Positions 9,239-62,773 of a stretch of 64,000 bases of DNA are shown here, piece after piece. Below the pieces are notes generated by a model, which ran no database searches, was not told the DNA's origin, and saw only the letters and a program-made list of their open reading frames with translations. The DNA lies in NCBI GenBank assembly GCA_019635635.1, contig JAHBZB010000001.1:496001-560000 (forward strand), in the 5' to 3' direction. The translations under genes were made by a program, and so were the position numbers. Every line of letters begins with the position of its first letter. The first letter of the stretch is position 1. This stretch comes from Xanthobacteraceae bacterium (GTDB taxonomy: Bacteria; Pseudomonadota; Alphaproteobacteria; Rhizobiales; Xanthobacteraceae).

Positions 9239-11152
<1,914 letters not shown>

Positions 11153-11274
11153 GGCTTACCTCTCGTTTCCGGCAGGCCGGGTGGGTCCGTTCGGCACCCT
11201 TGGAAACGGCGTTCCTCGCCGTTCCCCTCGGCCCCCGCGTTGGGGATTTGCCGCGAGCGCGGCAGTTGCGAGGG

Positions 11275-11303
11275 ATATAGGCAGGGGCTTTTTCAGCCGC
11301 AAG
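11275..11303 (-). promoter_or_regulatory. Sigma-32 (RpoH) type promoter of dnaK
   Basis: On the minus strand a CTTGCG (-35, at 11298-11303) is separated by 17 bases from CTATAT (-10, at 11275-11280). This fits the alphaproteobacterial heat-shock consensus CTTG ... CTATAT as I recall it. It would leave a GC-rich leader of over 100 bases before the dnaK ATG. I found no CIRCE operator here, so RpoH rather than HrcA is the likely regulator of dnaK. Confidence 0.65.
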
Positions 11304-11315
11304 GCGGCCAAGCCC

Positions 11316-11957
11316 TTAAAGCTCCGAAGAATTACGCCCCGGACGGGCACGGTAAACGGGAAGCGACCAGCCCCGGAGCAACGCACCGGCACGGATGCCG
11401 AAAGCCACGAGAAAACCGAGGGTTGCGCCGCCCCAGAACGGCGTTCCGGCAGCCGACAGAACCACGAAAACTAAGGCACCCGCGAAGGCACAGGTGATGT
11501 AAAGCTCGCGGCGCAGGATCACCGAAGGCTCGCCCGCGAGCACATCGCGAATCACGCCGCCGAAGGTCGCAGTGAGAATGCCGAGCGCCAGCGCATCGGC
11601 CGCCGACGCGCCCGCGGCCAGGGTCTTCGCCGCACCCACCACCGTATAGGCGGCAAGCCCGACCGCATCCGCCCAGAGGAGCACGCGATAGCGCGATTCA
11701 AAAAGATGCGCGGTGAAAAAGACCAGCACCGCGACGCAAAGCGGAATCGCGAGATAAGCCGGGTGGCGAACCCAGAATACCGGCACGTCGAGCAGAAGGT
11801 CGCGCAACGTACCGCCGCCGGTCGCCGTCACCGCGGCAAAGAACACGAAGGCGACGACGTCGAGTTGTTTGCGTGACGCGGCCAGCGCACCGGTCGCGGC
11901 AAACACCGCGATGCCGACATAGTCGAGTGTCTGGAGAAGAACCGAAACCTGATTCAT
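11316..11957 (-). CDS. TRIC/UPF0126 family cation channel-like membrane protein
   Basis: A 213-residue membrane protein with about seven hydrophobic spans. It contains two copies of the UPF0126 repeat: the first has ATGGGTLRDLL near residue 45, the second TFGGVIRDVLAGE near residue 130. Prokaryotic members of this fold are trimeric potassium-permeable channels homologous to animal TRIC. The ATG at 11955-11957 (MNQVSVLL) is preferred to one six codons upstream because it starts just before the first membrane span. Physiological role here is unknown. Confidence 0.82.
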   Translation of the reverse strand: MNQVSVLLQTLDYVGIAVFAATGALAASRKQLDVVAFVFFAAVTATGGGTLRDLLLDVPVFWVRHPAYLAIPLCVAVLVFFTAHLFESRYRVLLWADAVGLAAYTVVGAAKTLAAGASAADALALGILTATFGGVIRDVLAGEPSVILRRELYITCAFAGALVFVVLSAAGTPFWGGATLGFLVAFGIRAGALLRGWSLPVYRARPGRNSSEL

Positions 11958-32413: not shown

Positions 32414-33721
32414 ATGTCCGACTTCTCGCCCCGCGAAATCGTTTCCGAGCTCGACCGCTTTATCGTCGGCCAGCACGACGCCAAGCGCGCGGTCGCGATT
32501 GCGCTGCGCAACCGCTGGCGGCGTCTGCAACTCGACGACAAGTTGCGCGAAGAAGTACTGCCGAAAAATATCCTGATGATCGGGCCGACCGGCGTCGGCA
32601 AGACCGAGATTTCGCGCCGTCTCGCGAAACTCGCGAACGCGCCGTTCCTGAAGGTCGAAGCGACCAAGTTCACCGAAGTCGGCTATGTTGGCCGCGACGT
32701 CGAGCAGATCGTGCGCGACCTCGTCGAAATCGGCATTGCACTGACGCGCGAAACCAAACGCCGCGACGTGCAGGCGCGCGCGCATGTCGGCGCGGAAGAA
32801 CGCGTGCTCGACGCGCTCGTCGGTCCGGCGGCAAGCCCTGCAACGCGCGAGAGCTTCCGCAAGAAACTGCGCGCGGGCGAACTGGATGAGAAGGAAATCG
32901 AGATCGAGATTTCCGGCGGCGGCAATCCGCAAATGCCGATGATCGATATTCCCGGCATGCCGGGCGCGCAGATGGGTGCGATCAATATCGGCGACATCTT
33001 CGGCAAGGCCTTCGGCGGCAAGCCGAAGACGCGGCGCGTCACCGTGAAGGAGGCGCATCCGCTTTTGCTCGCGGAAGAGTCGGACAAGTTGCTCGACCAG
33101 GAATCGGTCACGCAGGAAGCGATCCGCATCGTCGAAAATAACGGCATCGTGTTTCTGGACGAAATCGACAAGATCTGCGCGCGCGAAGGCATGCGCGGCG
33201 ATGTTTCGCGCGAGGGCGTGCAGCGCGATCTTCTGCCGCTAATCGAAGGCACCACCGTCAACACCAAATACGGTCCGGTGAAATCGGACCACATTCTCTT
33301 CATCGCGTCCGGCGCGTTCCATGTCGCGAAACCCTCGGATTTGCTGCCTGAATTGCAGGGCCGGCTGCCCATTCGCGTCGAATTGAACGCGCTCAGCCGC
33401 GACGATTTCCGCCGGATTCTGACCGAGACCGAAGCCTCGCTCATCAAGCAGTCCATCGCGCTGATGAAGACCGAAGACGTGAACCTCGTGTTCACCGACG
33501 ACGCGATCGACGCACTTGCCGACGTCGCGGTCGAGGTGAATGCCCGGCTCGAGAATATCGGCGCGCGGCGGCTGCAAACCGTGATCGAGCGGGTGCTGGA
33601 CGAAATCAGCTTCACCGCGCCGGATAAGTCGGGCGAGACGCTCACGATCGACGGCGAATATGTGAAGAAGCGAGTCGCGGATCTCGCGAAGGACGCGGAT
33701 CTTTCGCGCTATATTCTGTAA
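32414..33721 (+). CDS. hslU: HslU (ClpY) ATPase subunit of the HslUV protease
   Basis: An AAA+ unfoldase that feeds substrates into HslV. Walker A GPTGVGKT is at residues 57-64, Walker B is in [12 protein letters not shown], and [15 protein letters not shown] and [14 protein letters not shown] are family motifs. The tail ends LSRYIL, the HslV-docking C terminus. It has 435 residues. It is separated from hslV by two membrane-protein genes but is still within the same tightly packed run. Confidence 0.97.
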
Positions 33722-36679: not shown

Positions 36680-37156
36680 ATGACGACGCAGAACGGCGGC
36701 ACCACGGACGCCCAGGTGCCCGGCCTCGGAATTCTCGGTCAGTACGTCAAGGATCTCTCGTTCGAGAATCCGCATGCGCCGCAATCGCTGATGGCGCAGC
36801 CGGAGCAGCCGCCGGCCGTCGACGTTCAAATCAACGTCAATGCCAAGCCGATGGCGGAGACGGACTACGAGGTCGAGCTCAAGGTTGAGGTAAAGGCCGA
36901 GGACAAGAAGGCGAAGCGCGTGCTCTTCAATCTGGAGCTGACCTATGCCGGCGTGTTCCGCCTGACCAACGTACCGAAGGACAGCGTGCAGCCGCTTGCC
37001 CTGATCGAATGTCCGCGGCTCCTGTTTCCCTTCGTGCGCCGGATCGTCGCCGATTCGATCAGCGAAGGCGGCTTCCCGCCGATCATGTTGCAGCCGGTGG
37101 ATTTCGCGGCGCTGTTCCGCGCGCGCGCGGAAAGCCAGAACGCGGTAAAATCCTGA
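36680..37156 (+). CDS. secB: Protein-export chaperone SecB
   Basis: It keeps preproteins unfolded and hands them to SecA. The 158-residue protein matches SecB: LGQYVKDLSFENPHAP near residue 18, VDVQINVNAKPM and the acidic YEVELKVEVKAEDK. LFNLELTYAGVFRL and the RLLFPFVRRIVADSISEGGFPP block near residue 115 complete the pattern. Its stop is one base from that of the converging dnaQ. Confidence 0.97.
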   Translation: MTTQNGGTTDAQVPGLGILGQYVKDLSFENPHAPQSLMAQPEQPPAVDVQINVNAKPMAETDYEVELKVEVKAEDKKAKRVLFNLELTYAGVFRLTNVPKDSVQPLALIECPRLLFPFVRRIVADSISEGGFPPIMLQPVDFAALFRARAESQNAVKS

Positions 37157-39313: not shown

Positions 39314-39921
39314 GACACGATCATCCCGGCTTTTCTGCAATAAGCGAGCAGCGGCATCAGCGGCATGCCGAGGATCGTGAAGTGATCGCCCGCGATCTTT
39401 TCGAACAGATTTACGCCGACACTTTCGAGTTGGTAGGCGCCGACGCTCTGCATGACGCGATCCCCCGCATCTGCGAGATAGGCGTCGAGAAAAGCGTCGC
39501 TAAGCGCGTGCATTGTGAGATGTGCGGAGGACACCGTCTCGAACAACACGTTACGATCGCGCAGAAGCGCGATGCCCGAATGCAGCGCGTGAGTCTTGCT
39601 CGAAAACTTTTTCAATTGCGCGCGCGCGGCATCGATCGATTTCGGCTTGGAGAAGCGTTCGCTGCCAAGCGCGAGCGTCTGGTCGGCGCCGAGCACGATC
39701 CTGCCGGGGTTGCGTTTTGCAGTCTCGAGCGCTTTCGCGCGGGCCAATAGTAATGCAGCGCCTTCGGGCGTGGCGGCTTCCTTCGGCGACGCGGCTTCGG
39801 CCGCGCGCTCGTCGATGTCCGCGGGGTCGATCACGAGCGGAATGCCGGCGGCTTCCAGGAGCGCGCGGCGCGGCGCGCTTTTCGAGGCGAGCACCAGCGG
39901 CTCTCCCTGCCACAGCGTCAT
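39310..39921 (-). CDS. maf: Maf-family nucleotide pyrophosphatase
   Basis: 203 residues with the Maf signature [16 protein letters not shown] near residue 11, [11 protein letters not shown] near residue 75 and [14 protein letters not shown] near the C terminus. Maf proteins hydrolyse dTTP/UTP or modified nucleotides and are linked to division arrest; which subtype applies cannot be told from sequence. Its ATG overlaps the stop of ppsR. Confidence 0.93.
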
Positions 39922-40775
39922 TGCACGGGTGCCGTGTCGCGACGGCGCTCCTGCAGGAGCGCGATCACCGCGGCCGCGGTTTCCTCGATCGAGCGGCGGG
40001 TGACGTCGATGATCGGCCAGTTATGGCGCGCGCAGAGTTTTTTCGAATGCGCGATCTCGTCGCTCACCGAATGGCGATCGACGTAATTCGAGTCCGACTG
40101 ATTGGCGTTGAGACCGAGCAGCCGGTTCTGGCGGATCTGCACGATCCGCTCCGGGCTTGCGATCAAGCCGACGACGAGGGGTTTGCGGATACGTTCGAGT
40201 TCGCCCGGCGGCTCGATGCCCGGCACCAGCGGTACGTTCGCAGCCTTGATGCCGCGATTGGCGAGATAGATGCTCGTCGGCGTTTTCGAGGTGCGGGAAA
40301 TGCCGACCAGCACCACGTCGGCATCGTCGAGATTCTCGGTATGCTGGCCGTCGTCGTGCATCAAAGTGTAGTTCAGCGCGTCGATCCGGCGGAAATATTC
40401 GGCATTGAGCATGTGCTGGCCGCCGACGCGCGGCGTAGTTTCGGTGCCGAGATAAGACGCGAAAAGACTGAGTACCGGATTCAAAATAGAGAGGCAGGGA
40501 ATGCCTTTCTCTTTGCAGTGATCCTCGAGCCGCCCGGTCAGCACGGGATCGACCAACGTATAGAGAACAATGCCGGGATTGGCCTCGATGTCGATCAGCA
40601 CCGGGTCGAGCTGCTTCACGTTGCGGATCAGCGGGTACACATGCTCGATCGGCGAAACGGTCGAATATTGCGCGCAAGCCGCGCGGCCGACCGCGAGCAG
40701 CGTTTCGCCGGTCGCGTCCGAGACGAGATGCAGATGGAAATAGCTTTCCGTCTTCGGCAACGGCGGAACATCCAT
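39918..40775 (-). CDS. ppsR: PEP synthase / PPDK regulatory protein (kinase-pyrophosphorylase, DUF299)
   Basis: A bifunctional serine/threonine kinase and pyrophosphorylase that switches pyruvate phosphate dikinase or PEP synthase off and on. [14 protein letters not shown] opens the domain, and the P-loop-like [18 protein letters not shown] near residue 150 and [13 protein letters not shown] near residue 215 are typical. It has 285 residues from ATG 40773-40775; the alternative ATG ten codons upstream has no support. It is the first gene of its operon and borders the probable replication origin. Confidence 0.93.
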
Positions 40776-40892
40776 GGAACTGTGAACTGCTGGGGAGAAG
40801 GCCACGCAAAACGAGCCCGCGCAAGGGTGGCCGGGGATAACGGCTGGAATCGTCCAGAATCCTGCCGGAGCGGTCCGAAAGATCGCGTCGTT

Positions 40893-40901
40893 TGTGAATA
40901 A
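40893..40901 (-). other. DnaA box TTATTCACA
   Basis: The minus strand reads TTATTCACA, a full match to the R-type consensus TTATNCACA. Weaker relatives on the same strand are CTGTCCACA at 40956-40964 (two differences from TTATCCACA) and TTATCCCCG at 40832-40840 (two differences). Confidence 0.7.
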
Positions 40902-40997
40902 TGAGAAGAACTCAGAAATCGTTTTGAACGCTGGCGTCCTGCAGCTTGTGAATTTTGTGGACAGCGTGAAACGTGGAGTGTGTCGTGAGGAGAAAAC

Positions 40998-41006
40998 TTG
41001 TCCACG
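40998..41006 (+). other. Weak DnaA-like box TTGTCCACG
   Basis: TTGTCCACG differs from TTATCCACA at two positions. It lies 33 bases after the inverted box at 40956-40964 and 14 bases before the AT-rich stretch that starts at 41021, the position expected of DnaA sites next to an unwinding element. Confidence 0.45.
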
Positions 41007-41036
41007 GACTCAAGGGGTCAAACAGACTCTAAATAA

Positions 41037-41060
41037 GATTCTAGAAAGGATTCTAGTAAG
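41037..41060 (+). repeat. 12-bp tandem repeat in AT-rich core of the origin
   Basis: GATTCTAGAAAG (41037-41048) is followed at once by GATTCTAGTAAG (41049-41060), with one difference. Each copy begins with a GATTC (GANTC) methylation site. The repeat lies in the most AT-rich 50 bases of the region and is the best candidate for the DNA unwinding element. Confidence 0.75.
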
Positions 41061-41427
41061 GAAGGGATAAGTCGAGAGGGCAGTGATCGGTTCCTCGCAT
41101 TCAGTTCGAGTCTAGCTCGATAGGGATGAGATTGAGATCGGAGGAGGCTGTTGCGTTTTTCGCGCCCCGAAGTTGGGTTTGTGAGTCGCCGCCGGTCGAA
41201 GTGAGCGACAGCGTGAAGGCGGTCGTTGACCGCAGCACAGTAGCTTCGGGCTCTACCAACAATCATGTGAGCAGCGGGGAAAACCGGAATAGGCAAGGAA
41301 TTGCCTGTGCTTCGATAGTAGCGTCCGGTGGACAGGCCTTGGATCAAGGCTCGAGCCCGGGATTCGGCGAGGCGTCGGCAGCCATAATCCCCCAATCCGG
41401 TAGGTGAAGCCGATTTAATCCGGTCAG

Positions 41428-41476
41428 GCTTGCCTCGCCGCCCCGTTTTTCCTATTTTCCCGCTGCCTTCCTTCCA
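41428..41476 (+). promoter_or_regulatory. Pyrimidine-rich, G-poor tract in the rho leader (rut-like)
   Basis: From about 41428 to 41476 the plus strand is almost all C and T with few G. A second C-rich tract occurs at about 41540-41580. Rho binds such C-rich, unstructured RNA, and rho genes are known to limit their own expression by Rho-dependent termination in the leader. Use as a rut site is inference. Confidence 0.4.
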
Positions 41477-41638
41477 ATGCAGGCATCGACCGCGGTTCGC
41501 CGAGAGCGTTTTCGTATCGGCAGCGGCTCCGGGCTTTCAGCCTTCCTCCCTAAGCCCGAAAGACCTGCACCTCCCCTCTGCAAAGACCGTGGCGGCGGTT
41601 TCCGCCAAGTAATTGGACTAAGACAAGGACTATCCCCA

Positions 41639-42904
41639 ATGCGGGAAATCAAACTTCAAGAACTCAAAGCGAAATCCCCGGTCGAGCTGATTGCAGTGGC
41701 CGAGGAGCTCCAGGTCGAAAACGCGAGCACACTGCGGAAGCAGGAACTGATGTTCGCGATTCTCAAGCAATACGCCGCCAAGGAAGTCGACATCGTCGGC
41801 GAAGGGGTCGTGGAAGTGTTGCCGGACGGCTTCGGCTTTCTGCGCTCGCCGGACGCGAATTATCTCGCGGGTCCGGACGATATCTACATCTCGCCGTCGC
41901 AGATCCGCCGCTTCTCGCTGCGTTCGGGCGATACGGTCGAAGGACACATCCGTTCGCCGAAAGACGGCGAGCGCTACTTCGCGCTCCTCAAGGTCAACAC
42001 GATCAATTTCGAGGACCCGGAGAAGATCAAGCACAAGGTCCACTTCGACAACCTCACCCCGCTCTATCCCGACGAGCGGATCAAGATGGAAATCGAAGAC
42101 CCGACGCGGAAAGACAATTCCTCGCGCATCATCGACATCGTGGCGCCGCTCGGTAAAGGCCAGCGAGGGCTGATCGTGGCGCCGCCGCGCACCGGTAAAA
42201 CCGTTCTCCTCCAGAACATCGCGCACTCGATCACGGCCAATCATCCGGAGTGCTATCTGATCGTTCTTCTGATCGACGAACGTCCGGAAGAAGTGACCGA
42301 CATGCAGCGCTCGGTGAAGGGCGAGGTCGTTTCCTCGACCTTCGACGAGCCGGCGTCGCGCCACGTCGCGGTCGCGGAAATGGTGATCGAAAAGGCGAAG
42401 CGCTTGGTCGAACACGGCCGTGACGTCGTGATCCTACTGGATTCGATCACGCGCTTGGGCCGCGCCTACAACACCGTCGTCCCGTCGTCGGGCAAGGTGC
42501 TGACGGGCGGTGTCGATGCCAACGCGCTCCAGCGCCCGAAACGCTTCTTCGGTGCTGCGCGTAACATCGAGGAAGGCGGCTCGCTGACCATCATCGCGAC
42601 CGCGCTGATCGATACCGGCTCGCGCATGGACGAAGTCATCTTCGAGGAATTCAAGGGCACCGGTAACTCGGAAATCATCCTCGACCGCAAGGTCTCGGAC
42701 AAGCGCGTGTTCCCGGCAATGGACATCACCCGCTCCGGCACCCGCAAGGAAGAACTTCTGGTGCCGCCGGATCAGCTCAAGAAGATGTACGTGCTTCGCC
42801 GCATCCTCAACCCGATGGGCACGGTCGATGCGATCGAATTCCTGATCGACAAGCTGAAGCAGACCAAGAACAACGCGGAATTCTTCGAGAGCATGAATAC
42901 CTGA
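41639..42904 (+). CDS. rho: Transcription termination factor Rho
   Basis: A hexameric RNA helicase that ends transcription at Rho-dependent terminators. The N-terminal Rho_N helix bundle ([20 protein letters not shown]) and the cold-shock-like RNA-binding domain ([16 protein letters not shown]) come first. The ATPase has Walker A in [16 protein letters not shown] near residue 180, and [16 protein letters not shown]. It has 421 residues, a compact form without insertions. It starts at ATG 41639, after a long leader, and ends in an intrinsic terminator. Confidence 0.97.
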
Positions 42905-42974: not shown

Positions 42975-43841
42975 CTACGCCGGCGCGACGTTCCGCCTCG
43001 AAACATAGACCGCAAACAGGGTCGCCGTCAGATACATGCAGAGCGTGTAGATGCCGGGCACGAGCGACGCCGCCGGATTGTTCAGCACGTTCAGCGCGAC
43101 ATAAATCGCAAGTGCGGTGTTGTGAATCCCGATTTCCATGGTGATCGCGATCGCCTGCCGCTCGGGGAGCCTGAGTGCAAGCGGCGCGAGATAGCCGGTC
43201 AGCATGCTCACGACATTGAAGAGCAGGCATGCGAGACCGACCGCGACGATGCTGTCCAAGAGTTTTGCCCGCTCGATATAGATCGCGGCCAGAATCAGGA
43301 CCGTCAGGATCAGGATCGAGAACAGCTTGATCGGCTTTTCCATCCGTTGCGCGAAGCCCGGCGCGCGGGCGCGGACGAACATGCCGATCAGGACCGGCAC
43401 CAGGATGATCGCCGCGACCTCGATGATCTTGCGGTGCGGGGGCGGCACGTACTGGCCGGCGCCGAAGAAATATTCGAGCGCGAGATTGACAATGATCGGG
43501 AGCGTGAGGAGCGCGAGTACGCTGTTCACGGCCGTCAGCGTGATGTTCAGCGCGACGTCGCCCTTGGCGAGATGACTATAGATGTTAGCGGTTGCCCCGC
43601 CGGGCGCGGCTGCGACCAGCATCAGCCCTAGCGCATGGTTCGGGGAAAGCTTGAGCGCCACCGCGATCAGGAGCGCCGCGAACGGCAGAAGCACGATCTG
43701 GAGGAACAGCCCGCCACCGACCGCAAGCGGATAACGCGCGACACGCTTGAAGTCCTCGACCGTAAGACTGAGGCCGAGGCCGAACATGATGATGCCGATG
43801 GAAAGCGGCAACAGCAGGTCGGTGAGGATGGATGCTTGCAT
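42975..43841 (-). CDS. Bile acid:sodium symporter family transporter (BASS)
   Basis: 288 residues with about nine or ten membrane spans. Family features are GIIMFGLGLSLTVEDFKRV near residue 16, the AAPGGATANIYSHLAKGDVALNI crossing motif near residue 79, and TMEIGIHNTALAIYVALN near residue 234. BASS proteins move organic anions (pyruvate, pantothenate, keto acids) with sodium; the substrate here is unknown. It stands alone, facing rho across the terminator. Confidence 0.88.
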   Translation of the reverse strand: MQASILTDLLLPLSIGIIMFGLGLSLTVEDFKRVARYPLAVGGGLFLQIVLLPFAALLIAVALKLSPNHALGLMLVAAAPGGATANIYSHLAKGDVALNITLTAVNSVLALLTLPIIVNLALEYFFGAGQYVPPPHRKIIEVAAIILVPVLIGMFVRARAPGFAQRMEKPIKLFSILILTVLILAAIYIERAKLLDSIVAVGLACLLFNVVSMLTGYLAPLALRLPERQAIAITMEIGIHNTALAIYVALNVLNNPAASLVPGIYTLCMYLTATLFAVYVSRRNVAPA

Positions 43842-43923: not shown

Positions 43924-45945
43924 TTAGTTCGCGAGCGCGTCCGCAAGCTTTGCCGGATCGGCGATCGGCAGCGAGCAGACTTGCCCGCGGCAGACGAAAG
44001 CCGCGCCCTCGCCACTCACGGCGGCGAGCTTTTCCCGCGCGGGATGACCGGCAGGAAGCGCGGACTCGTCGGGCGCGCGCAAGAGCGTGCTTGCAAGGAA
44101 GGATTGTGCGAGCGCGGCCTTGGCAAATTCGCCGGCTCGGGCGCCGGTGACGACGATTTCATTGAGGCGGAGCCGGGTGTCGAGCGCGGCTAATAACGCC
44201 GCGTGACCGAAAAGGTTCGCGGCTGCGAGCGGCAGCACGCCCTCGAACAGCCGGTCGGCTTTTTCGGTATAGGAATATTGTCCTGTAAGCGCCGCGAGCC
44301 GTGCGAGGTTCTGCGCCATCCAGGCATGCGGGTTCGGGATCGCATCGTCGCGCGTCGAGTGCGGCCGCAGGATCAGTTCGCCGCCGTCATCGGCGGTGAG
44401 AAAATATCCGCCGGTTTCCGGGTTTGCATGATGGGCCTCGAGCAGGTGCTCCCACTTGATCGCGCGGTCGAGATATTTTTTCTCGCCGGTCGCGCGATGC
44501 AGCGCGAGGGCGGCGCGGATCATGGAGCCGTAGTCGGAGGACAATCCGGGAAAGAGCAATCCGCCCGCGCGCCATGAATGGCCGAGTCGGCTATTCTTCG
44601 TCATCGAGTCGGAGACGAAACGGAAAGCGCGCGCGCCGAGTTCGATCCATGCCGCTTCGCTAAACAGCGCGCCGGCGTTGGCGAGTGCCGCGCACATCAA
44701 TCCGTTCCAGTCGGCGAGCACCTTGTCGTCGAGTCCTGGCCGGACTCGTTCTGCGCGAGCGTCCAGAAGTTTCGCGCGCAAGGGCGCAAGCCGCACCTCG
44801 TCTTCGGCGCTCGCGCTTCCGGAGAGCAAGCGGTTCGGAATGTTGTGGCCTTCGAAGTTGCCGTCGCGGGTGAGGTCGTAGGCTTTCGCGAAGAAGGCGG
44901 CATCGTCCGCGCCGAGCACGCGCGCTACCTCGTCGAGCGACCAGACGTAGAACTTGCCCTCCTCGCCTTCGGAGTCGGCGTCGAGACTGGACGCGAAGCC
45001 GCCGCCTTCGACGATCATCTCGCGGGTCAGCCATTCGACCGTCTCGTGCGCGCGGCGGCGGAACAGATCGTCGCCGGTCTTCTTCCAGGCCAGCGCCAAT
45101 AGTTCGAGCAATTGCGCGTTGTCATAGAGCATCTTCTCGAAGTGCGGCACGAGCCAACGGTCGTCGACCGAGTAGCGCGCGAAGCCGCCGCCGAGATGGT
45201 CGTAGATGCCGCCCTCGCACATGTTGCGAAGTGCGACGAGCACAGCGTCGAAGAACGATTCGGATCCGGTTCTTTCCCCTGCCCGCCACAGCATTTCGAG
45301 AATCGCGCTTTGCGGAAATTTCGGCGCGCCACGGATGCCGCCCTTTTCCATGTCGAGCAGATTCAAAAACTGGTTCGCGAGCTGGTTCAGCTCCTCAACG
45401 CCGATCGTCACTTTGCCCGCCGGCCGGGCCTTCTGGCGGAGGGCGGCGATGAGCGCGTCGCGGTTCTTGCCGACCTTCTCCGGCTCCTCGCGATAGATGC
45501 GCGAGAGTTCGCGGAGCACATCCGTGAAGCCGGGGCGGCCGTATTGCGCGGTCTTCGGAAAATACGTGCCGCCCCAGAACGGCTTGCCGTCGGCATCGAG
45601 AAACATGGTCAGCGGCCAGCCGCCCTGCTCGCCGAGATGCTGGAGCGCGCTCATGTAGATCTCATCGACCTCAGGCCGCTCTTCGCGGTCGACTTTGATG
45701 TTCACGAAGAGATCGTTCATCACGGCGGCCGTGGCGGCGTCCTCGAAGCTCTCGTGCGCCATGACGTGGCACCAGTGACAGGCGGCATAGCCGATGGAGA
45801 GCAGGACGGGCTTGTTCGCGCGCCTGGCCTCTGCGAAGGCTTCCGGAGACCACGGCCACCAGTGCACCGGGTTATCCTTGTGCTGGATGAGGTAAGGGCT
45901 GGTTTCGTTGGCCAGCCGGTTTTGCGCGAGGCTGTTTTCGGACAT
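43924..45945 (-). CDS. DUF255 thioredoxin-domain protein (YyaL/SPATA20 family)
   Basis: 673 residues. The N-terminal thioredoxin-like domain has [21 protein letters not shown] near residue 8 and the redox-like motif [18 protein letters not shown] near residue 52. The rest is an alpha/alpha-barrel (glycosidase-like) region with [29 protein letters not shown] near residue 240. The family is widespread but its reaction is not established. The ATG at 45943-45945 is preferred over one five codons upstream. It diverges from mnmE with 36 bp between starts. Confidence 0.9.
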
Positions 45946-45981
45946 GCGATGGTCTAACACGATGCTCCAGAGAGTGTTCGC

Positions 45982-47310
45982 ATGAGCGACGACACGATCT
46001 TTGCGCTCTCGTCGGGTCGGCTGCCGGCGGCGATTGCGGTCGTAAGAATCAGCGGAGCCAATGCTCGAGTCGGACTCGAAACATTCGGCGTGAAGTTGCC
46101 TGAGCCGCGCCGCGCGGCGCGCGCGAAACTGATCGACCCTGATTCACGTGAAACAGTCGACGATGCGCTGGCGCTCTGGTTTCAGGGCCCGAAAAGCGAG
46201 ACCGGCGAGGACATGGTCGAGCTGCATCTGCATGGCGGCCGCGCGATCCTGGCGCGCGTGTTTGCGGTGCTCGGCGCCCTACCCGGCTTTCGGCCCGCGG
46301 AGGCTGGCGAGTTCACGAAGCGTGCGGTTTTGAACGGCAAGATGGATCTTTCGCACGCCGAAGGGCTTGGCGATCTGGTCGTTGCCGAGACGGAAGCGCA
46401 GCGCCGTCAGGCGATGCACCAGTATCAGGGCGCGCTTTCGAAGCAGGTCGAAGCCTGGCGCGAGCTGCTGGTCGAAGCCATGGCGCTGATCGAAGCCAAT
46501 CTCGATTTCGCCGACGAAGCCGATGTGCCGGAGAATCTCTTGCCTCCCGCCGCTCGAGTCGCATCCGAAATGTTGTCGGAGATCGAGGCGGCGCTTTCGG
46601 ATGCGCGGCGCGGCGAGCGGCTGCGGGAAGGTTTTGCGGTCGCGATTGCAGGCGCGCCGAATGCCGGAAAATCGACGCTGCTGAATGCGCTGGCACAGCG
46701 CGACGTGGCGATTGTCTCCGACATTCCCGGCACCACGCGCGATGCGATCGAAGTCGCGCTGGACCTTTCCGGTGTGCCGGTGGTGCTGATCGATACGGCC
46801 GGAATTCGCGAAACCTCTGATCCGGTCGAGCAGGAAGGCGTGCGGCGTGCGATGGCGCGGGCGGAGGCCGCCGATCTTGTGCTGTTGCTGGAGCCTGCGG
46901 GCGGCGCTTCGATTTGCCTGCCGACCCAGCCGCATCAGACGCTTTGGAAAATCCAAACCAAATCAGACCTGATCGATTCAGACTCGAAACAATCGTTGAA
47001 TCGAAACGAGACTCTCGCGATTTCCGCAAAAACAGGCGCGGGCATCGACGAGCTTTTGCGCCGACTCGCGAAGGAAGCGGAGCGTTTCGCAGGCGAGCCC
47101 GCGCTGGTCACGCGCGAGCGCCAGCGCGTTGCGCTGCGCGAAGCGTCGGCGCGAATTTCGTCCGCGCTTTCGCTGGCGAAGCCGGGGCAGGAAGAACTGT
47201 TCGCGGAAGAACTGCGGCTTGCCGCGCGCTCGCTCGGACGCATCACCGGCCGGGTCGATGTCGAAGACGTGCTCGATAAAATTTTCAGTTCTTTCTGTAT
47301 TGGTAAATGA
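45982..47310 (+). CDS. mnmE: tRNA uridine-5-carboxymethylaminomethyl modification GTPase MnmE
   Basis: With MnmG it modifies U34 of certain tRNAs. The N-terminal folate-binding domain starts [22 protein letters not shown]. The inserted G domain has [14 protein letters not shown] near residue 222, [11 protein letters not shown] and DTAGIRE. The C terminus ends FCIGK with the catalytic Cys439. It has 442 residues. A near-perfect parS lies inside it. The next gene is its partner mnmG. Confidence 0.97.
46140..46155. other. parS: parS site (15/16), inside mnmE
   Basis: TGATTCACGTGAAACA differs from the ParB-binding consensus TGTTTCACGTGAAACA by one base at position 3. It is encoded within mnmE (the segment reading DSRETVD). 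Confidence 0.8.
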
Positions 47311-47344
47311 AAGGTTAACGCGGCCGCGAAGCGCGGATCGCGGG

Positions 47345-47360
47345 TGTTTCACGTGAAACA
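47345..47360. other. parS: parS site (perfect), between mnmE and mnmG
   Basis: TGTTTCACGTGAAACA is an exact palindromic match to the bacterial centromere consensus bound by ParB. It lies in the short gap before mnmG and about 3.4 kb from parB. Confidence 0.95.
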
Positions 47361-49253: not shown

Positions 49254-49888
49254 TCGACGAGAAGCTGCTCGCGCAGGACCGCGAAAGCGCACTTCGAATC
49301 ACGCCCGTTTCACGTGAAACAGCGGAGCGGCTCGATCGCTTCGTCGCGCATTTCCTAAAGTGGCAGCAGGTCGTGCAGCTCGTTGCGCCTTCGACCCTGA
49401 ACACAGTTTGGACGCGCCATATCGCGGACAGTTTGCAGCTCTTGCCCGACATCGAAGACGTGAAAGAAATTGTGGATGTCGGGAGTGGCGGCGGCTTCCC
49501 CGGACTCGTGCTTGCGATCGCTTCGCCGGATAAAAAATTTCACCTGGTCGAGAGCGACACGCGAAAAGCATCTTTCCTTCGCGAAGCAGCGCGTATCGCC
49601 GACGCGCCACTGACGGTTTATGCCGAAAGGGTCGAGTCGGTTACGAAACGGATCGGCACAGGAATTCAAACGGTGACTGCGCGCGCCTTCGCGCCCTTGC
49701 CAAAACTGTTGGAGTTAACCGAAGACTTCTTGCGCGCGGGCGCGAAAGGAGTCTTTCTCAAATCCCAAGATATAGATGACGAATTGACTACAGCCGCTAA
49801 ATCTTGGAACGTTAACTATCAATTAAGGAACAGCCTGACCGATCCGCGTGGTAGAATCCTCCTGATCGACAAGGCATCGCGGCGCTAA
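49250..49888 (+). CDS. rsmG: 16S rRNA (guanine527-N7)-methyltransferase
   Basis: It methylates G527 of 16S rRNA; its loss gives low-level streptomycin resistance. The N-terminal [15 protein letters not shown] near residue 36 and the SAM loop [16 protein letters not shown] near residue 76 fit RsmG. A Lys-rich catalytic region and the [14 protein letters not shown] helix follow. It has 212 residues. A parS-like site lies inside its first 25 codons. The order mnmE-mnmG-rsmG-parA-parB is classic for origin-proximal regions. Confidence 0.95.
49306..49321. other. parS: parS site (15/16), inside rsmG
   Basis: CGTTTCACGTGAAACA differs from the consensus only at the first base. It is the third ParB-type site in 3.2 kb and lies 0.6 kb before parA. 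Confidence 0.85.
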
Positions 49889-49906
49889 CGCTTATTGGAT
49901 GCGGCC

Positions 49907-50737
49907 ATGAGCAACTCTCTTCGTCCCCGGGTACTTTCGCTCGCCAACCAGAAGGGCGGGGTCGGCAAGACCACGACCGCCATCAACCTCGGAACGGCGC
50001 TCGCCGCGATCGGCGAGCGGGTCCTGATCGTGGACCTCGACCCGCAGGGCAACGCCTCGACCGGGCTCGGCATCGACCGCAAGGATCGGGACCGCTCCAC
50101 GTTCGACGTGCTGGTCGGCGAATCGGACATGCAGGGCGTTATCCGCGAGACCGCCGTTCCGGGTCTTCACATCGCGCCTTCGACGCTCGACCTCTCCGGT
50201 CTCGAACTTTCGCTCGCCACCCGCAAGGACCGCGCCTACCGGCTGCGGGACGCGATAGGAAAACTTTCCCGTCCGTCGCGCGGCGCCGACGGCGTGCTCG
50301 AGGCAGAGGGCTACACCTATGTATTGGTCGATTGTCCGCCGTCCCTGAACCTGCTCACCGTAAATGCAATGGCGGCGTCCGACGCGGTGCTCGTGCCGTT
50401 GCAGTGCGAGTTCTTCGCGCTCGAAGGTCTTTCGCAACTGCTGAAGACCGTCGAGCAGGTGAAGATGAGTCTCAATCCCGCACTCACCATCCACGGCATC
50501 GTGCTCACCATGTACGACGCGCGCAACAATCTCTCCGACCAGGTGGTTGCCGACGTGCGGCAGTTCATGGGCAAGAAAGTTTTCGACACCGTGATCCCGC
50601 GCAACGTGCGCGTCTCCGAAGCGCCGTCCTACGGCAAGCCGGTGCTGCTCTACGATCTGAAATGCGTCGGCAGTCAGGCTTACCTGAAACTTGCATCCGA
50701 GATCGTGCAGCGCGAACGCGCGCTCGCGGCCGCGTAA
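49907..50737 (+). CDS. parA: Chromosome partitioning ATPase ParA
   Basis: It drives segregation of the origin region by ATP-dependent DNA binding and ParB-stimulated hydrolysis. The deviant Walker A KGGVGKT is at residues 16-22, with VLIVDLDPQGNASTGLG and YVLVDCPPSLNLLTVNAMAA following. It has 276 residues from the ATG at 49907; a TTG four codons upstream is an alternative. No helix-turn-helix precedes the ATPase, so this is a chromosomal (Soj-type) ParA. Confidence 0.96.
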   Translation: MSNSLRPRVLSLANQKGGVGKTTTAINLGTALAAIGERVLIVDLDPQGNASTGLGIDRKDRDRSTFDVLVGESDMQGVIRETAVPGLHIAPSTLDLSGLELSLATRKDRAYRLRDAIGKLSRPSRGADGVLEAEGYTYVLVDCPPSLNLLTVNAMAASDAVLVPLQCEFFALEGLSQLLKTVEQVKMSLNPALTIHGIVLTMYDARNNLSDQVVADVRQFMGKKVFDTVIPRNVRVSEAPSYGKPVLLYDLKCVGSQAYLKLASEIVQRERALAAA

Positions 50738-50762
50738 ATAATGTGATGCGGGGAGAGCGATA

Positions 50763-51644
50763 GTGGCGATGGCGGAAGAACGCTCACGATTGGGACGGGG
50801 ACTGGCGGCGCTGATCGGCGACGTCGGCGACGAGACGGCCGCGATCGATCGCGCGCGCGGACAGAAGCGTGTGCCGATCGAATATCTCAAGGCCAATCCG
50901 AAAAACCCGCGCAAGGTTTTCGATTCGGAAGAGCTCGACAATCTTTCCGCGTCGATCCGCGAGAAGGGCATCCTTCAGCCGATTCTGGTGCGCCCGGTCA
51001 GCGGAAAGAAAGACCAGTACGAGATCATAGCCGGCGAGCGGCGCTGGCGCGCGGCGCAGCGCGCGGGCGTGCATGACGTTCCGATCACGCTACTCGAGAT
51101 CGGCGACAAGGAAGCGCTTGAGATCGCGATCGTCGAGAACGTGCAGCGCGCCGACCTCAATCCTTTGGAAGAGGCAGCAGGCTACGAGAATCTCGTCGAG
51201 CAGTTTCACTACAGCCAGAACGATCTCGCCAAGGTCGTCGGCAAAAGCCGCAGCCATATCGCGAATACGCTGCGGCTATTGAAGCTGCCGAACTCGGTGA
51301 AGAAGTATCTCTCCGAGGGCAAGCTCACCGCGGGTCACGCGCGCGCGCTGCTCGCGCATGACGATCCGGAGAAACTCGCGAAAGCCATCGTCGACGGCGG
51401 CATGAACGTGCGCGATGTCGAGGCGCTTTCGCCGAACGAGCGCAAGCCTTCGAAGACGAAAGCCGGCGGCAAGGCGAAGCCCGCGAAATCCGCCGACGTA
51501 CGCTCGCTCGAGAAGAAACTGGTCGATCAGCTCGGCATGGCGGTTTCGATCAACAACCGCGGCGCCAAGGGCGAGATGAAGATCAAGTACAAATCGCTCG
51601 AGCAGTTGGATGCGCTCTGCCGCAAGCTCGGCGTGAGGTATTAA
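50763..51644 (+). CDS. parB: Chromosome partitioning protein ParB
   Basis: A CTP-dependent DNA clamp that loads at parS and spreads. The N-terminal RLGRGLAALIGD stretch, expected to touch ParA, is followed by VPIEYLKANPKNPRKVF. GERRWRA (residues 91-97) is the CTP-binding motif. NDLAKVVGKSRSHIANTLRLLKLP near residue 155 is the parS-reading helix-turn-helix, and the C-terminal dimer domain closes the protein. A GTG start at 50763 follows GGGGAG by seven bases; ATG 50769 is an alternative. It has 293 residues. Confidence 0.96.
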   Translation: MAMAEERSRLGRGLAALIGDVGDETAAIDRARGQKRVPIEYLKANPKNPRKVFDSEELDNLSASIREKGILQPILVRPVSGKKDQYEIIAGERRWRAAQRAGVHDVPITLLEIGDKEALEIAIVENVQRADLNPLEEAAGYENLVEQFHYSQNDLAKVVGKSRSHIANTLRLLKLPNSVKKYLSEGKLTAGHARALLAHDDPEKLAKAIVDGGMNVRDVEALSPNERKPSKTKAGGKAKPAKSADVRSLEKKLVDQLGMAVSINNRGAKGEMKIKYKSLEQLDALCRKLGVRY

Positions 51645-51668
51645 AAGTCCTTATTTCAAGCGGACTTT
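51644..51668 (+). terminator. Possible weak terminator hairpin at the end of parB
   Basis: AAAGTCC (51644-51650) pairs with GGACTTT (51662-51668) around an 11-base loop. The stem is short and the following T-run is minimal, so it may be only a 3'-end hairpin. Confidence 0.35.
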
Positions 51669-51689
51669 CGCTTATCTAAAATTCCCGTC

Positions 51690-60298: not shown

Positions 60299-62773
60299 TC
60301 AATCGGCTCCGCCGCCCGCGAGAATCTCGCGCTTTCCGGAGTGGTTCGCGGCGGAAATGACGCCTTCCATCTCCATGCGCTCAATCAGGGTCGCGGCGCG
60401 GTTGTAGCCGATCTGGAGACGGCGCTGGACATAGGACGTCGAAGCCTTGCGGTCGCGCAGCACGATCGCGACCGCGCGCTCGTAAAGATCGCCGCCCTCC
60501 TCGCCCATCGCGGATTTGTCGAATATCGAACCGTCCTCGCCTTCCTCGGGCTCCGCGGTGATCTCCTCGAGATATTCCGGAACGCCCTGTTCTTTCAGGT
60601 GACGCACGACGCGCTCGACTTCGGCGTCGGAACAGAACGGACCATGGACGCGCGAAATGCGCGAGCCGCCGGCCATGTAGAGCATATCACCCTGGCCGAG
60701 GAGCTGCTCGGCGCCCTGCTCGTTCAGAATGGTACGGCTGTCGATCTTCGACGACACCTGGAAGGAAATGCGGGTCGGGAAGTTCGCCTTGATGGTGCCG
60801 GTGATCACGTCGACCGACGGACGCTGTGTCGCCATCAGGAGATGGATGCCGGCGGCGCGCGCCATCTGCGCGAGGCGCTGAATCGCGCCTTCGATGTCCT
60901 TGCCCGCGACCATCATCAGGTCTGCCATTTCGTCGACCACAACGACGATGAACGGTAACGGCTCGAGATCCATTTCCTCGGATTCGTAGATCGCCTCGCC
61001 GGTTTCGCGGTCGAAGCCGGTCTGCACCGTGCGCTTGATCGACTTGCCCTTGGCAGCGGCTTCGACGACGGCTTCGTTGAAGTTCGCGATGTTGCGCACG
61101 CCGAGCTTCGACATTTTCTTGTAGCGTTCTTCCATCTCGCGCACCGCCCATTTGAGCGCGATCACGGCCTTGCGCGGATCGGTCACGACGGGCGAGAGCA
61201 GATGCGGGATGCCGTCATAGACGGAAAGTTCGAGCATCTTCGGGTCGATCAGGATGAGACGGCACTGCTCGGGCGAGAGCCGGTAGAGCAGCGAAAGAAT
61301 CATGGTGTTGATCGCGACCGATTTGCCGGAGCCGGTGGTACCGGCAATCAGCAAGTGCGGCATGCGCGCGAGATCGGCGATCACCGGCTCGCCGCCGATG
61401 TTCTTGCCGAGACAGAGCGGCAGGCTCGAAGGCGTGTCGCGGAAGTCGCGCGATTCGAGCTGCTCGCGCAGCACGACCTTCTCGCGCTTCGCGTTCGGCA
61501 ATTCGATGCCGATTGCGTTCTTGCCGGGGATGACAGCGACGCGCGCGGAGACTGCGCTCATCGAGCGGGCGATGTCGTCGGCAAGGCCGATCACGCGCGA
61601 CGACTTGATGCCGGGCGCGGGTTCGAGTTCGTAGAGTGTGACGACCGGGCCCGGACTTGCGTTGACGACCTGACCCTTCACGCCGAAATCCTCGAGCACG
61701 CTTTCGAGCATGCGCGAATTTTCCTCGAGCGCCTTCACAGAAAGCGCGGGTGTGCGCGAGCCGGAAGCGGCGGCGAGAATATCGAACGGCGGAAGTTTGT
61801 AGGTGCCGCCGCGGCGGCGCTTCTTTTCGCGCGACTGCGCGGGCGCGGGCTTCCTGCGCGGCGCGTCGGCTTCCTCTTCCTCGTCCTCGTATTCTTCCTC
61901 TTCGTACTCGCCCTCTTCTTCGTACTCGGCGTCCGCACCCTTGCCCGGCACCAGTGTTGGCTCGCGGCGCGCGCTCTTCGCGGGCGGTAGCTCCGGTTCG
62001 GCTGCGAGGAAGGCGGCGAGACGTTCGCGTAACGAGCGCTTCACTTTCGGCTGACGGCGTCCCGAGAGACGTGCGCGCAACATATAGAAGACATGAAAGA
62101 CGCTGCCGAAAGCGGCGGAGACGCGCGCGAACAGGTTCGCGGGTTCGGTGGGCTCGCCGAGTTCGCCGTCGTCGCCGTAGTCGTCGAGCTCGCGTGCGGG
62201 GGGCTCTTGCTGGAAACCCGCGCCGAGCGCGATCGCAAGCGTGAAGACCGTCGGCATCGCGAACAGAAGGCCCATGAGAATCCGGCTCGCATTCGCGGTC
62301 GAGCCGAGTAACAACGACGGAATGAAGATCAGCGAATCGCCGATCGCGCCGCCGAGGCCGGTCGGCAGCGGCCAGCTCGAAGGCGCGCGAAAGCAGGCGG
62401 CAAAGCCGCATGCGAACAACACCGCGCCGAGCCAGAACAGGATGCGGATTTTCCAGCGCTTCAACGCGCGATGCGTCATCACGAGCCAACCCCAGATCGC
62501 GACCGGCAAAAGCAGCGCGAGCGAGCCGAGGCCGAACACCTGCATCATGAAATCGGAGAAGGCGGCACCCGCGCGGCCCATCAGGTTATTCACGTTGCCG
62601 TCGGCGGCGTAACCGAAATTCGGGTCCTGAGACGACCAGGTGCCGATCGCGACGAGACACGCGATCACGAACACGATCAGCGCAAACCCGCGCAATTCGG
62701 CGAGGCGGCGATGGAACGCGCTGACGATTTCTTCGGGAAACAGGCTGGCGTTTCTGGCGGAGGACTGGCGCAT
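60299..62773 (-). CDS. ftsK: DNA translocase FtsK
   Basis: A septal DNA pump that clears the terminus region and activates XerCD at dif. Four or five N-terminal membrane spans (about residues 25-190) are followed by a low-complexity acidic linker rich in Glu and Tyr (near residues 280-315). The motor domain has Walker [13 protein letters not shown] near residue 480 and Walker [18 protein letters not shown]. The C-terminal gamma domain ([25 protein letters not shown]) reads polar KOPS sequences. It has 824 residues. It lies 13 bp downstream of the aminotransferase gene. Confidence 0.96.

Follow-up and report, generated by a model that had tools for sequence, protein, structure and literature searches.

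Among the chromosomal origins described in the Alphaproteobacteria, Cori of Caulobacter crescentus was mapped by experiment between hemE and a COG1806 gene (CC0001) and carries DnaA, CtrA and IHF sites; PMC1914354, which describes it, takes nearness to either hemE or COG1806, binding sites and AT content as origin criteria. From our analysis of a 64,000-nucleotide stretch (hereafter the window; C1:496001-560000) of a Hyphomicrobiales genome of 3,369,323 bases in 4 contigs, window positions 40806-41075, between ppsR and rho, very probably contain the chromosomal origin (oriC). The location is shown by sequence evidence, and DnaA binding, unwinding and an effect of methylation are inferred. The origin is of the hemE-COG1806 (Caulobacter/Rickettsia) type already known in the class, with one flank (hemE) lost. 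The lineage is apparently uncultured, and its nearest named relatives here are MAGs.

The locus resembles Cori in its COG1806 flank, an AT-rich stretch, DnaA-like boxes and GANTC sites (PMC1914354; PMC3973325), but differs from it, with its five CtrA sites and one IHF site, in having neither consensus, in the absence of hemE and in having rho as right neighbour (PMC1914354). The COG1806 flank is likewise shared with the Rickettsia prowazekii origin (hemE RP885 - COG1806 RP001), where, however, hemE is kept and the AT content is 82.55% vs 50% here (PMC1914354). One ancestral flank gene is lost, as in the Wolbachia/Ehrlichia/Anaplasma origins (COG1253 - hemE); there COG1806 moved away and hemE stayed (PMC1914354), whereas in this lineage it is ppsR that remains and hemE that is gone altogether. 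The preliminary description had placed the oriC of Caulobacter and rhizobia at this locus, to which it must be added that the usual partner, hemE, is missing here. Closest are the ppsR-hemE gaps of Hyphomicrobiales relatives, e.g., G001 (a complete, single-contig, hemE-bearing genome): the core block and the GANTC spacing are common within the genus, but in G001 intact copies of hemE and hemJ separate the core from rho, and both are absent here.

Organization of the ppsR-rho gap

The features of the locus and of the nearby partition genes are as follows (window coordinates).

39918-40805, minus strand: ppsR (COG1806/DUF299, Kinase-PPPase; PF03618, E 3.7e-90), left flank of the origin
40806-41075: proposed oriC, corresponding to the intergenic region between ppsR and hemE in relatives (alignment, BLASTN, composition)
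40893-40901, minus strand: exact DnaA box TTATTCACA, without conservation in the sister or other genus members
40955-40964, both strands: loose DnaA-like boxes (2 mismatches; mismatch scan)
40998-41006, plus strand: DnaA-like box TTGTCCACG (2 mismatches), the best-conserved box candidate
41007, 41025, 41037 and 41049 (41007-41053): four GANTC (CcrM) sites, spaced 18-12-12
41021-41070: AT-rich core, proposed DNA-unwinding element (GC 0.32)
41076-41403: stretch standing where relatives have hemE and hemJ, with an alignable counterpart in the sister genome only
41404-41419, plus strand: likeness to the last hemJ codons (GTGAAGCCGATTTAA; relatives GTGGTTAAGCCGTTTTAA; alignment)
41420-41638, plus strand: conserved rho upstream/leader region (alignment, BLASTN)
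41639-42904, plus strand: rho (PF07497, PF07498, PF00006)
47347-47358: parS-type palindrome TTTCACGTGAAA (C1:543347-543358)
49308-49319: parS-type palindrome TTTCACGTGAAA (C1:545308-545319)
49895-51644, plus strand: parA and parB (PF13614/PF01656 and PF02195/PF17762)

The predicted functional core is the left ~270 bp of the gap (~40806-41075), flanked by a COG1806 gene recognizable by PF03618. Its GC content is 0.50 vs about 0.62 around it, an AT content above that of the genome. With a BLASTN query from 40990, the likeness to the five relatives other than the sister is lost near 41077 and returns near 41403-41429, and this genome and its sister (G002) are 77% identical across the region. A repeat origin of 41076-41403 was rejected, as the genome contains 40990-41430 only once. 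The gap had been described as 863 bp free of genes; the gap itself stands, but 833 bp (40806-41638) is the better extent, given that ppsR starts at 40805 (GTG; ATG in some relatives) within a stretch kept in 7/7 aligned sequences, from which that start is deduced. The claim that strand polarity diverges exactly here did not hold: the dnaQ-type exonuclease gene, coaE, aroE, maf and ppsR are on the minus strand and rho, mnmE, mnmG, rsmG, parA and parB on the plus strand, the exceptions being, on the left, secB (36680-37156; plus strand) and, on the right, minus-strand genes at 42975-43841 and 43924-45960. No RNA families or tRNA genes were found in the window at the thresholds used. Elsewhere in the window, a 662-aa frame at 9509-11497 (+) matches PF10712 'NAD-GH' (E 1e-190), an annotation that is doubtful because we take this family to be a frame antisense to another gene.

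DnaA-like boxes

We scored boxes as loose (at most 2 mismatches to TTATNCACA) or strict (at most 1 mismatch). The perfect box reported at 40893-40901 was confirmed as an exact match on the minus strand; it is the one exact TTATNCACA in the window, the whole genome having 12. The site reads TTTGTGAATAA here and CTGTGACTTA in the sister, and the perfect box was rejected as the key element since it is absent from the sister species. The weaker boxes reported at 40832, 40956 and 40998 are present, though each has 2 mismatches. Conservation was assessed in an alignment of 7 sequences (this genome and 6 others), and the core motif and GANTC spacing were checked in 8 genus sequences. The left block of the origin holds loose boxes that are poorly conserved in the 7-sequence alignment; TTGTCCACG is exact in 6/8 genus sequences and differs by one substitution in the remaining two, and the core block TTGTCCACGGACTC is exact in 5/8, with one substitution in the other 3.

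By their loose members, DnaA boxes are above chance at the candidate: 400 bp hold 10 loose boxes vs a shuffle mean of 2.3, and 0/1000 shuffles have as many. Strict boxes in the same length number 1 vs 0.18 in shuffles, and since 16.6% of shuffles reach 1, the local box signal rests on the loose boxes; it counts against the site that the sole box within 1 mismatch is the non-conserved perfect one. We scored the sampled DNA (832 kb, 25% of the genome, window included) in overlapping windows of 300 bp, 32,548 in all, and loose boxes are most numerous at the candidate (10 per 300 bp; next separate place 9). A wider set comprised homologous upstream segments of 400 bp; of 111 loci, 101 were kept after removal of 9 duplicates and of 1 segment with ambiguous letters. 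Across these segments, which are related and hence not independent and some of which reach into hemE, exact TTATNCACA occurs 12 times vs 0.4 expected from shuffles, boxes within 1 mismatch 145 vs 14.8 and GANTC 426 vs 187.8. The commonest near-box among them, TTGTCCACA (21), is one letter from the core box here.

Other sites were searched for in vain. Neither CtrA sites (TTAA-N7-TTAA or TTWW-N7-TTWW) nor an IHF site (WATCA-N5-WTR) occurs in 40806-41638, and both absences count against the origin. The DnaA-trio, which we take to be a box followed by a run of 3-mers [T/A]A[G/A], is represented by pairs only (e.g., TAGTAA), with no run of 3 or more 3-mers. Background on the DnaA-trio is given in PMC10225481, and some accepted origins, e.g., that of E. 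ruminantium, are described as lacking CtrA sites (PMC1914354).

The AT-rich core and its GANTC sites

The 32% GC earlier counted by hand over 41021-41070 was reproduced by computation (0.32), and only 0.019% of the 50-bp windows of the window have a GC content of 0.32 or less, of which 47269-47318 is lower (0.30) and 51634-51683 equal. Eight GANTC sites, which the preliminary description had overlooked, lie in 40847-41187. In 8/8 genus sequences the first three core GANTC sites follow a TTGTCCACGGACTC-like block and are spaced 18 and then 12 or 13; in the alignment, a purine-rich run comes after the core sites and extends up to the place of the hemE start in relatives.

GANTC is depleted in the window (186 vs 381 in shuffles), which holds with each palindromic site counted once, and such depletion is reported for CcrM-bearing Alphaproteobacteria (PMC3973325). 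Dinucleotide shuffles reach 8 GANTC in 341 bp in 54/100 cases; the cluster is thus ordinary against shuffles, because these are without the real depletion, and stands out only against the real background. There the candidate ties for the top GANTC count per 300 bp (7, with a place in the sampled stretch L014), and among the 300-bp windows of the 832 kb it is the only place with 6 or more loose boxes together with 4 or more GANTC. The genome encodes a CcrM-type RAMA-domain protein, as in Caulobacter CcrM, which presumably methylates GANTC. As the Caulobacter origin is reported to have several GANTC motifs (PMC3973325), their presence in an alphaproteobacterial origin is not new.

Chromosome-scale signals

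A single-step fit places the GC-skew change point of the first contig (C1) at 530 kb (bootstrap 5-95% 526-536 kb), with mean skews of -0.010 to its left and +0.032 to its right. The candidate, at C1 536.8-537.1 kb, is 7 kb from this change point, a signal expected of bacterial origins, although the interval ends 0.8 kb short of it; the cumulative skew minimum over 496-620 kb, at window position 32648, also counts against the exact site. Skew is mostly negative in the samples of C2 (16-17/19 below zero, one value being 0.0000 to four digits) and mostly positive in those of C3 and C4, the sign flipping close to the end of C3; two arms of roughly 1.7 Mb each would follow under the contig order that we infer. 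In the complete relative G001 a two-step fit falls at 1,462,001 and 2,944,001 (close alternatives 1,388,001 and 2,942,001-2,946,001), the second step 27 kb from its ppsR-hemE gap (2,916,451-2,916,790) and the first roughly opposite.

KOPS-type GGGNAGGG motifs are also polarized: in sampled C1, they number 1 plus/13 minus left of the site and 25 plus/4 minus right of it. Among the genome-wide matches listed, forward KOPS number three left of the site, and the rest lie from C1:562180 on. Against the site, reverse KOPS occur to its right at window positions 45284 and 46284, so that the KOPS flip is shifted toward parS, 5-25 kb beyond the site and on the side opposite the skew step. Since the skew interval ends 0.8 kb short and the KOPS flip is on the other side, the chromosome-scale signals bracket the site and do not hit it. 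In this genome (7 kb) and G001 (27 kb) alike, the skew step is on the ppsR side and the KOPS flip on the parS side. FtsK is the translocase that reads KOPS, and ftsK lies at window 60299-62773 (-), about 20 kb from the origin. In both genomes the few KOPS between oriC and parS carry the orientation of the opposite arm (45284 and 46284; C1:2914816 in G001), as if the flip were at parS, though these are three motifs only. The exact parS 12-mer TTTCACGTGAAA has two copies genome-wide, both in the window, 6-8 kb from the candidate and beside parA-parB.

Could the origin instead lie at the parS/mnmG end (47.3-49.3 kb), the ppsR-rho gap being only a box-rich regulatory region? The KOPS polarity that flips right of 46284, the forward KOPS that G001 also has between its origin gap and parS, and the lowest-GC 50-mer of the window (47269-47318) point that way, but the KOPS argument comes down to three motifs, the mnmE-mnmG spacer is just 92 bp, no TTATNCACA within 1 mismatch occurs there and the skew flip is on the other side, so that we consider this location very unlikely. 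Even less probable is an origin beside dnaA, as in many bacteria. Here dnaA lies at C1:439.8-441.4 kb, 96 kb from the candidate, and is followed by ORFs of dnaN/recF/gyrB sizes, names that we assign from a presumed gene order; the locus was rejected as box-poor, since 438.0-444.1 kb has at most 2 loose boxes per 300-bp window and none within 1 mismatch, and skew over 400-490 kb has no sign change beyond noise (-0.008, -0.011, -0.008, +0.013). That the gap is merely the divergent promoter/leader of ppsR and rho, its boxes being sites of a DnaA-regulated promoter, is hardly credible: 41420-41638 is indeed a conserved rho leader and GANTC is reported to be favoured in intergenic regions generally (PMC3973325), but in relatives the core conservation persists against hemE, not rho, and the chromosome-scale skew and parS also speak against a mere promoter.

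The origin proposed earlier between ppsR and rho is upheld, with corrections, by skew, parS and loose-box density. A skew minimum or box clusters at another locus had been named as what would speak against it, and neither emerged on looking: the skew step is 7 kb away, and nowhere else in the 832 kb sampled, the dnaA locus included, does a 300-bp window have at least 6 loose boxes and at least 4 GANTC.

Apparent loss of hemE, hemJ and hemH

No match to hemE (PF01208) was found in this genome or in the sister, which leaves the origin without its hemE flank. The gene is present in 6/8 genus genomes, i.e., all those other than this genome and its sister, and stands beside the core in all 6. Matches to hemJ (PF03653) occur in 5/8, with none here, in the sister or in the fragmentary G006, and those to hemH/ferrochelatase (PF00762) in 5/8, with none here, in the sister or in G005 (72% complete). 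The hemB gene is present in this genome, with no match in the sister. Both this genome and the sister are rated 100% complete, and an assembly artefact is unlikely because two separate assemblies, 77% identical across the region, are without the same genes. The lineage may need outside heme.

In 41076-41403, BLASTN against five relatives found no remnant of hemE or hemJ (short matches, E 0.27 or worse), and neither did TBLASTN of the L043 HemE and HemJ frames. A match to G001 HemE (E 1e-5, 40969-41067) was rejected as a remnant, being origin DNA read in an upstream extension of the frame; G001 HemJ was not among the frames. The stretch 41404-41419 is probably a scar of the hemJ deletion, a reading which is only suggestive because the match is short. 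Proteins with CXXCH make up 5/781 ORFs here vs 1/459 in hemE-bearing G001 (sampled DNA), a comparison uninformative on heme use; the five here are one UvrA, one DUF255 and three without a Pfam match. Our search of the literature on heme-lacking relatives found nothing relevant.

Among 61 genomes searched, ppsR was matched in 57, hemE in 57 and both in 55. By hand count, 40/55 genomes with both carry hemE on the same contig as ppsR and at most about 0.5 kb from it; among the other 15, G020 has hemE at the opposite end of its single contig and 14 have it elsewhere. In G012, G030 and G031 hemE is far from ppsR on the same contig, which is indicative that in other genera the pair was split by rearrangement, not loss.

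Implications for the origin of the lineage

At such an origin, DnaA would bind boxes that are for the most part weak, among which TTGTCCACG at 40998 is the best conserved. It would open the AT-rich DNA next to them (41021-41070), two forks would set out from there, and ParB bound to the parS pair 6-8 kb off would then move the new origins apart. Firing would leave the GANTC sites in the AT-rich core hemimethylated until CcrM remethylates them late in the cycle, and the delay may help to time re-initiation. The former right neighbour, hemE (with hemJ), has been deleted in the lineage, and the origin core was kept. Conceivably, though we hold this wider reading to be doubtful, the origin of the genus gradually came to have, in place of strong DnaA boxes, a single conserved near-box followed by a phased ladder of CcrM sites inside the unwinding element, with methylation directly gating duplex opening, and its core outlived the loss of hemE, once a constant neighbour, in a lineage that is also without hemJ and hemH and that may rely on heme from outside.

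The origin of this lineage is in all likelihood fixed to about 270 bp, which makes it usable for read-depth growth estimates and genome rotation. As an origin marker hemE fails here, but COG1806 on the other flank and the core sequence remain usable. In essence, the locus would be a natural case in which an origin flank was removed and the core kept, and the fixed GANTC spacing in the putative unwinding element makes the idea of gating by methylation testable.
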